Shown here in pieces: positions 3,762-59,794 of a stretch of 64,000 bases of DNA. How positions within the stretch are numbered: position 1 is the first letter of the stretch; the number at the start of each line of letters is the position of its first letter. This stretch comes from Diadophis punctatus similis. Its lineage: Eukaryota; Chordata; Lepidosauria; Squamata; Dipsadidae. The stretch spans positions 139,249,126-139,313,125 of the forward strand of contig JALIGW010000003.1 in assembly GCA_023053685.1 (NCBI GenBank), in the 5' to 3' direction. Position numbers and translations under genes: made by a program. The notes beneath the pieces were generated by a model, which was not told where the DNA came from, did not search any database, and saw only the letters and a program-made list of their open reading frames with translations.

Positions 3762-42035
<38,274 letters not shown>

Positions 42036-50840: not shown

Positions 50841-50867
50841 TATATTTAATATAATATATAATATAAT

Positions 50868-51905
50868 AACAGAGTTGGAAGGGACCTTGGAGGTCTTCTA
50901 GTCCAACCCCCTGCTTAGGCAGGAAACCCTACACCACTTCACACAAATGGTTATCCAACATCATCTTAAAAACTTCCAGTGTTGGAGCATTCATAACTTC
51001 TGGAGGCAAGTTGTTCCATTGATTAATTGTTCTAACTTTCAGGAAATTTCTCCTTAGTTCTAAGTTGCTTCTCTCCTTGATTAGTTTCCACCCATTGCTT
51101 CTTGTCCTACCCTCAGGTGCTTTGGAGAATAGTTTGACTCCCTCTTCTTTGTGGCAACCCCTGAGATTTTGGAAACTGCTATCGTGTCTCCCCTAGTCCT
51201 TCTTTTCATTAAACTAGACATACCCAGTTCCTGCAACTGTTCTTCATATGTTTTAACCTCCAGTCCCGTAATCATCTTTGTTGCTCTTCTCTGCACTCTT
51301 TCTAGAGTCTCAACATCCTTTTTGCATCGTGGCGACCAAAACTGAATGCAATATTCCAAGTGTGGCCTTACCAAGGCATTATAAAGTGGTATTAACACTT
51401 CACGTGATCTTGATTCTATCCCTCTGTTTATGCAGCCTAGAACTGTGTTGGCTTTTTTGGCAGTTGCTGCACACTCCTGGCTCATATTTAAATGGTTGTC
51501 CACTAGGACTCCAAAATCCCACTCACAGTTACTACTATTGAGCAAGGTACCACATATACTGTACCTGTGCATTTTGTTTTTCTTGCCTAAATATAGAACC
51601 TTACTTTTTTCACCATTGAATTTCATTTTGTTAGATAGCGCCTAATGTTCAAGTCTGTCATGATCCTTCTGTATCTTGAGCCTATCTTTTGGAGAGTTGG
51701 CTATTCCTGCCAGTTTGGTGTCATCTGCAAATTTGATGAATTCCCCATCTATCCCCTCGTCCAAGTCATTGATGAAGATGTTGAAGAGTACTGGGCCTAA
51801 AACAGAGCCTTGGGGTACTTCACTGCATACTTCCCTCCATGTACGTAGATGCAGTTTCATTGAGGACTACACGTTGAGTGTGGTTTCATTTCCAAGAACC
51901 TGGTT
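50868..51905 (-). mobile_element. CR1 LINE, 3' terminal 1 kb with reverse-transcriptase fragments
   Basis: The 3' end is ACAGAGTTGGAAGGGACCTT, next to a TATAATA repeat. The minus strand encodes [20 protein letters not shown] and [16 protein letters not shown] (51642-51860) and, after a frameshift near 51635, the C-terminal region LYLGKKNKMHRYSICGTLLN to LEYCIQFWSPRCKKDVETLE (51081-51626). The PQGS and FADD boxes identify a reverse transcriptase. 5'-truncated and inactive. Confidence 0.93.
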
Positions 51906-58215: not shown

Positions 58216-58745
58216 CAGTGATGGCGAACCTTTTTTGGCTCGGGTGCCAAAACACGCGATAGCTCGGGTGCCAAAACACGCGATATGCATGTGCCCACAC
58301 CCATAATGCAATGCCCTCCCCCCACGAAGGCACACAACCCCCGTGCTGCCCCCGCGCATGCGCACAACCTGCCCCCCATGCGCATACGCACAGGCCTCAC
58401 TGAAGCCTCCGGACTTCCGGTCGGCCCATTGGGCTGTTTTTCTCTCACCCCAGGGTTCAGGAATGCCTCCCGAAGCCTGGGGACAGCGAAAAATGGCCCA
58501 ACGGGCCAACTGGAAGTTCGGAATGAGCTTCCAGTTGGCCTGTTGGCCCATTTTTCACCGTCCCCAGGGTTCAGGAGGCTTTCCTGAAGCCTGGGGAGAG
58601 CGAAAATGGCCGAAAAGAAGGCCGAAAATCAGCTGGCCAGCACGCGTATGCGCACTGGAGCTGAAATATGGCAACACCTCGCGTGCCCTCAGATATGGCT
58701 CCCTGTGCCACCTGTGGCACGCGTGCCATAGATTCGCCATCACTG
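58216..58745. mobile_element. hAT element, GTGATGGCGAACC family, 530 bp
   Basis: Ends CAGTGATGGCGAACC and GATTCGCCATCACTG. Flanks ATCTAAGC/ATCTAGGC match at 7 of 8. A 23-bp CTCGGGTGCCAAAACACGCG-containing unit is duplicated at 58239-58285. The core has repeated inverted GGCCAACTGGAAGTTCGG segments. Confidence 0.92.
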
Positions 58746-58987: not shown

Positions 58988-59115
58988 AAGGAATCACCTT
59001 CTCCCCACGCTAAAGAACCAGAAGGAAAAAAAATCATAATCTTTATATGGTATAGTCTTGCCCATGCTGCAACATTGCTCAGTCACCTAAATATGAGCTC
59101 CTTCATTCCTTAAAC

Positions 59116-59786
59116 CAGTCCTCTTCAAATAGTGAGGCGCCCCCCCCGGGGGGGCTCGGAGCAATGCCAGGGGCGGCGCGTGTGACCCCGGGGGACATGC
59201 GTGATCCCTCTTGATCGATTCCCCCAGAAGGGGAGTGTTTTCCCAGTTGCACACTGCTCCGAACCCGGAAGAGAAGGCGGCCAGGCGAGCCAGAGCGGCT
59301 GCATGGGTTCTTGTTGTTCTTGGCGGGCGCCATGGTAGCCATGAACAGCGTGGCAAACCTGCTGCTGGACAAGGAGGAGCATCCTCTGCAGCTGGGCGAA
59401 AGCTTCGAACGGCACCCTAAAGCCTCCTTCCACACCATTCGCTGTGAGTGCCCGGCAGAGGCGACGCTTATGGGCCAGGCTGGCAACCCCAAAACATTGG
59501 CTTGATTAAGCTGGCCTGGCCCCATGTCAAAAGAGGGCCCTAACCATGGTAGCCTATGCCTGCCTAACTGAAAACAGGCTCCACTGAGTTCAGTGTGACT
59601 TACTCCCAGGTAAGTGGGTAGAGCAGCCTTCCCCAGCCAATAGTTTTGCTTGCAGCTTATAATAAGTAAAATAATAAATATTAACACTAAAATTCCATTG
59701 GGGCCCAGATCGGATAGTTGGGGGGGGCGCGAAATGTTTACTTCTTCCTGGGGGGGGGCGTAACAGAAACTAATTGAGAAGCACTG
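59116..59786 (+). mobile_element. hAT element carrying captured EAF1 exon 1, 671 bp
   Basis: Ends CAGTCCTCTTCAAATAG and, reversed, CAGTGCTTCTCAATTAG, followed on each side by C-rich runs (GCGCCCCCCCC and its counterpart). Flanks CCTTAAAC (59108-59115) and GCTTAAAC (59787-59794) match at 7 of 8. Between the ends lie a GC-rich 5' UTR, a coding exon with donor, and intron-like sequence (59444-59700). That intron-like part includes GACTTACTCCCAGGTAAGTG, a common reptile repeat motif. Confidence 0.88.
59341..59443 (+). pseudogene. EAF1: EAF1 coding exon 1 (captured copy)
   Basis: From the ATG at 59341 the frame gives [20 protein letters not shown], then [14 protein letters not shown], and one base of the next codon, followed by a GTGAGT donor at 59444. 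EAF1, an ELL-associated transcription elongation factor, starts with the same pattern, including LLDREEH, LGESFE and RASFHTIR followed by Tyr (the spare T fits a Tyr codon). No second exon is present, so this is an isolated genomic fragment, not a gene or a processed retrocopy. The frame is intact. EAF2 fits less well. Confidence 0.88.
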
Positions 59787-59794
59787 GCTTAAAC

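Follow-up and report, generated by a model that had tools for sequence, protein, structure and literature searches.

A hAT-type element family carrying promoter-side DNA and the first coding exon of EAF1 at over a thousand places in the genome of Diadophis punctatus similis

The window, a stretch of 64,000 nucleotides from the Diadophis punctatus similis assembly, harbors exons that we take to be those of RNF144B, judging from motifs of the human protein; the last one located lies near 41.9-42.0 kb. About 17 kb downstream, in the same orientation, a complete non-autonomous element of 667-670 bp, bounded by hAT-type ends and here denoted EAF1-hAT, occupies positions 59116-59786 (start CAGTCCTCTTCAAATAG, finish ATTGAGAAGCACTG). 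It is bordered by the target-site duplications CCTTAAAC (59108-59115) and GCTTAAAC (59787-59794), which agree at 7/8 positions. Read along the plus strand, a hAT-type left end of ~83-85 bp (59116-59198), common to elements with other interiors, is followed by captured 5' flank and 5' UTR of EAF1 (59199-59340, aligned to the intact gene from C386:472378 onward) and by the coding part of EAF1 exon 1 (59341-59443; 34 codons and one further base). The start of EAF1 intron 1 with the donor GTGAGT (59444-59465), 120 bp outside the EAF1 match (59466-59585), and further pieces of intron 1, termed B (59586-59638), C (59639-59694), and D (19 bp, 59693-59711), lead to a hAT-type right end of ~74-76 bp (59711-59786), which is common to the elements L107, L109, and L110 discussed below.

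The exon is identified by a PDB match and by alignment to the EAF1 gene. Translated from 59341, the 34 codons align with residues 1-34 of human EAF1 (PDB 7okx, E 9e-11), with 25/34 residues identical as counted in the alignment; 7okx was the sole PDB sequence matched by the 34-codon exon at E up to 10, and a Pfam search with the 34 residues returned no family. The reading frame from 59341 is open to CGCT/GTGAGT, and its donor at 59443/59444 lies at the exon 1 donor position of the intact gene, in agreement with the open exon and splice donor reported in the preliminary description of this locus. Besides reading frame and donor, the window copy retains the motif CCGGAAG in its captured 5' stretch, whereas the GGGCGG of the consensus is gone; we take these motifs to be an ETS-like site and a GC box, respectively. 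An upstream in-frame ATG is present in the window copy and absent from the consensus.

The parental gene lies elsewhere. A profile search of the genome with PF09816 yielded two places, both of which were scored. One of them, C386:477059, is situated on a contig other than that of the window, and its translation is presumably EAF1 exon 3. Upstream on the same strand, exon 2 was found at C386:474981 (30/30 residues equal to the human sequence) and exon 1 at C386:472517, and the exon 2 acceptor finishes the Tyr codon left incomplete by exon 1; an intact EAF1 locus with exons 1-3 is thus present. The second match, L043 (C1:214879147-214879308), is perhaps EAF2.

The 670-bp family consensus is collinear with the gene over positions 84-350 (93.3% identity), 471-523 (piece B, 98%, 53 bp), 524-578 (piece C, 100%, 55 bp), and 577-595 (piece D, 100%). 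Captured from the gene were accordingly 139 bp ahead of the ATG, coding exon 1 with its donor, and intron 1 in several pieces. Between gene and consensus, 8/208 non-CpG and 6/56 CpG-involving sites differ on the promoter side and exon, as do 1/108 sites in two intron pieces. The sequence behind the donor had been described as intron-like: this holds for 59444-59465 and 59586-59711, but the 120 bp between them, although part of the family consensus, are missing from the present gene (absent from 90 kb of the EAF1 locus), which has 15 bp at this point. Conversely, 178 bp of gene DNA are missing before piece C and 99 bp before piece D. The excess and the two gaps imply that either the element or the gene has been rearranged. 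The junctions show microhomology of one or two bases (GC at the left, TT shared between pieces C and D, perhaps C at the right), which would fit, without proving it, a filling of the interior by repair or template switching.

Since the gene is collinear with the element, intron included, the capture took place from DNA, as had been proposed. A coding exon inside a repeat is often a retrocopy, and a repeat might later have picked up a reverse-transcribed EAF1 mRNA; this origin has next to no probability, as collinear promoter-side DNA and the donor speak against it, the intron 1 pieces refute it, and the ends and 8-bp duplications are of the DNA transposon type. No intermediate capture forms were found in a search that covered one longer copy (L111, partly read) and the gene segment, the latter search being swamped by a repeat. 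L111 (C1:145407398, 100 bp longer) was rejected as an intermediate, its extra DNA being a nested (GTTT)n-tailed insert. Another copy, at C1:108992705-108994316, has its end cores ~1 kb farther apart than usual, representing a nested insert or a longer form.

The abundance of the family was assessed in the window's own assembly (1.78 Gb, 419 contigs). The 671-bp element as query gave 2,515 candidates on first look, and the 40 top-ranked among them were scored; apart from the window copy, all 39/39 of these best-ranked places align the query from positions 1-10 to 671 at 92-94% identity. A 32-bp exon core, allowing up to 2 mismatches, has 584 + 577 = 1,161 matches (0 + 0 for the backwards control), among which, judging from its sequence with a single mismatch to the core, the EAF1 gene should be counted. 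All 40 scored copies were read, together with 50 of 100 listed exon-core places (30 + 20), all on contig C1 and all with the exact core, so that this sample is biased to intact exons. At least one hAT-type end was present at 50/50 of these places, and 39/50 were full length. As one copy is common to both samples, 89 distinct places and 78 distinct full-length copies result. The EAF1 package is present at over a thousand places in one genome, and the earlier supposition that EAF1 first exons with promoter DNA might be scattered through it is supported. According to terminal bases 5-6, the 78 copies fall into 44 of GT-type (including one AT), 33 of CC-type, and one other; (nearly) fixed differences between the two sub-lineages occur only at these positions, with partial differences at 25-41, 110, and 608. 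Since both carry the same interior, a single capture at the origin of the family is the most parsimonious reading.

The flanks agree at 7/8 or 8/8 positions in 36/40 best-scored copies and in 19/20 and 18/19 pattern copies, i.e. in 72/78 distinct full-length copies, as compared to 20/1,560 mispaired left and right flanks for the best-scored set. This corroborates the 8-bp flanks seen around the hAT-like inverted ends of the window copy and supports mobility as a DNA transposon. The six full-length copies lacking a good duplication are L005, L028, and L064 (6/8), L023 (3/8), and L037 and L089 (1/8). The duplications center on TA (T at position 4 in 24/25, A at position 5 in 25/25). For 7/40 copies an empty site was found, a copy of the surrounding repeat that lacks the element and aligns with the two joined flanks across the insertion point. 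Most of these sites are 70-93% identical and some have small gaps; the best is that of L025 (97.2% over 109 bp, gap-free), and that of L016 lies in the window itself (50865-50935, 91.5%, gap-free). A repeat with CTAGTCCAACCCCCTGC is located at window positions 14948-14983, 27220-27255, and 50889-50924, and L016 and L028 are inserted at the same position in other copies of it. Segmental duplication frequently moves gene fragments, and EAF1 could in principle have been duplicated segmentally or in tandem, with the hAT-like sequence just happening to lie close by; target duplications around the whole unit refute this, the empty sites and the spread of copies over many contigs argue against it as well, and it is judged extremely improbable. 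Terminal inverted repeats of hAT elements are short and start with CAG. Those of EAF1-hAT are short too, CAGT(GT/CC)TTCTCAA at the left and, read inward, CAGTGCTTCTCAA at the right. Together with the 8-bp target duplication, they identify the element as hAT-type, a label based solely on these two features.

The ends are more widespread than the EAF1 package. A left-end core has 385 + 364 = 749 matches in the genome and a 22-bp right-end core 1,189 + 1,183 = 2,372 (control 0 for each), figures that should not be set directly against each other, since the two patterns are neither equally long nor equally variable. Inspection of six left ends that have no exact exon core close by showed four to be EAF1 copies (one of them, L104, minus most of the exon) and two, L107 and L103, to be other elements. 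L107, L109, and L110 carry one common interior, L107 and L109 having been read at both ends and L110 at the right end only. Left-end sharing extends to consensus position 84 in L109, to ~72 in L107, and to ~71 in L103. The target duplication of L107 is perfect (8/8, CTGTACTC); L109, with an interior ~340 bp longer than that of L107, is flanked by ACATAACA and ACATAACG. Excluding L107 itself, the L107-type interior was recovered at 40/40 scored places (the best of 1,231 candidates) with 89-94% identity. This interior corresponds to a portion of another dispersed repeat.

A second capture from the EAF1 locus was considered, as the L107 interior matched a stretch ~2.6 kb upstream of EAF1 and the match ends at the hAT junctions. 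It was withdrawn: at 34/39 other scored places, the match runs through the longer repeat of that stretch at 77-88%, so the EAF1-upstream stretch is one copy of a ~1-kb dispersed repeat. This copy (L050:2507-3545, on C386) finishes with CCGACCCCTG.

In L103 (C1:23441560-23442360), read at its left end, the same hAT left end is followed by a third, GC-rich interior (65% G+C, CpG o/e 0.6), and a right-end match lies 0.8 kb farther on. This interior, for which the genome search gave 25 candidates, each of them scored, may likewise be a captured promoter or first exon. For 5/5 reading frames from L103 and L107, Pfam returned no family. Taken together, the EAF1, L107-type, and L103 interiors indicate that these ends took at least three kinds of cargo; the same ends without an EAF1 fragment, the termini shared by other elements, are found in L107 and L109 at both ends, in L110 at the right, and in L103 at the left.

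Within the window, the left end of EAF1-hAT matched nothing but itself, and a BLAST search with the element found no match below E 0.1 in the remainder of the window. A second hAT-like element, CAGTGATGGCGAACC ... GATTCGCCATCACTG, lies beside it at 58216-58745, flanked by ATCTAAGC and ATCTAGGC (7/8). If up to 2 mismatches are allowed, the sequence GAGAAGCACTG is found at 28 places in the window compared to 15.8 expected (0/100 shuffles reach 28), an excess that suggests further hAT-like ends there.

The age and state of the copies were estimated from 59 full-length copies, leaving out columns with a second base at 20% or more. The median non-CpG distance to the consensus is 1.4% for the 40 best and 1.9% for 19 pattern copies. 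With a substitution rate near 2e-9 per site per year, the burst of EAF1-hAT would roughly date to ~7-10 million years ago. In the captured 5' DNA, 251/1,691 CpG cells are changed, versus 106/6,187 at other sites; such heavy CpG decay suggests methylation. Substitutions in the exon (129 nonsynonymous and 61 synonymous, versus 133 and 74 expected, p 0.33) look neutral in kind. Exon stops were seen in 0 instances versus 2.4 expected, numbers too small to carry weight; these exon counts cover substitutions only.

Both the reading frame and the GT donor have survived in 34/40 best-scoring and 26/38 pattern-sampled full-length copies, CCGGAAG is present in 26/40 and 18/38, GGGCGG in 36/40 and 25/38, and all four features in 19/40 and 8/38; the pattern copies were picked by the exact exon core, which favors intact reading frames. 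These counts allow a variant of the same history, in which many copies would have a working captured promoter and exon and supply nearby genes with alternative first exons. Such use is conceivable, as at least 30% of Pack-TIRs in three species are transcribed as chimeras according to a survey of animals (PMC8277862), yet it is rather doubtful here: the CpG changes point to methylated, mostly silent promoters, the exon appears to be without constraint, and the intact-frame count of the pattern copies is favored by the exact-core sampling.

EAF1-hAT is thus very probably a Pack-type hAT family, in which EAF1 DNA was captured and then spread. A host gene fragment sits between terminal inverted repeats inside one target duplication, and the consensus of 667-670 bp is accounted for in the alignment by ends, EAF1 pieces, and the 120 bp, i.e. 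it is without a transposase. In the proposed course of events, a hAT copy would have acquired EAF1 DNA once, its interior being filled from the EAF1 locus through repair or template switching. A hAT transposase made elsewhere would have spread the product in trans, and the copies would afterwards have decayed neutrally, probably methylated. A bolder and improbable extension would make the hAT lineage a serial packer and the EAF1 package a mobile first-exon cassette, made up of core promoter DNA, start codon, in-frame exon, and donor, whose promoter DNA aided amplification; some of the ~1,160 copies might then start transcripts spliced into neighboring genes or feed back on EAF1 via small RNAs.

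EAF1-hAT has multiplied a single captured piece of DNA, including start codon, coding exon, and donor, to more than a thousand copies. It represents a replicated natural experiment, with the same promoter-side DNA and donor at ~1,160 sites, in which alternative first exon use, silencing, and effects on the parent gene are measurable. It is also an annotation hazard, as gene prediction may place N-terminal EAF1 exons throughout the Diadophis punctatus similis genome.

Ordinary hAT MITEs share with EAF1-hAT the short hAT-type structure, the 8-bp duplications, and a very high copy number, but not its interior of promoter-side DNA and a coding exon from a host gene. A literature search covering titles and abstract starts, with most subscription papers outside its reach, returned no report of an EAF1-carrying hAT element, and the text of a review of snake repeats contains neither "captur" nor "transduc" (PMC8303610). 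Pack-type elements had been thought little described in reptiles; this does not hold, since Tan et al. (2021; PMC8277862) report 370 Pack-TIRs among 100 animal genomes, of which 208 are hAT and 38 come from the American alligator. Animal gene capture by DNA transposons is portrayed there as mostly single-copy and transposition-independent. Four multicopy Pack-TIRs in reference genomes (given as 1.4%) comprise three from frog and one from alligator, exemplified by a three-locus CAPSL 5' UTR, and a four-copy fly family was found besides (PMC8277862).

The CAPSL element, Pack-hAT-N8_XT of Xenopus tropicalis, resembles EAF1-hAT in its hAT ends, host gene DNA, several distinct target duplications, and a parental gene elsewhere, but it carries 291 bp of 5' UTR alone at three loci, whereas EAF1-hAT carries coding exon, donor, and intron pieces, with ~1,160 exon copies (PMC8277862). 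Ssk-FB4 of Drosophila melanogaster is likewise a multicopy TIR capture of 5' upstream and genic DNA spread through transposition; it differs in having four copies, long TIRs, 9-10 bp duplications (its authors lean to a MULE), and nearly the whole gene captured (PMC8277862). The plant Pack-MULE, Pack-CACTA, and Pack-hAT elements are also non-autonomous TIR elements with gene fragments mobilized in trans (PMC8903248), and usually not highly repeated according to a review (PMC8616336); the host of EAF1-hAT, in contrast, is an animal. Set against these cases, EAF1-hAT is by kind an animal Pack-hAT of the sort already known, and by its copy number and its start codon, coding exon, and donor an outlier among the surveyed cases.
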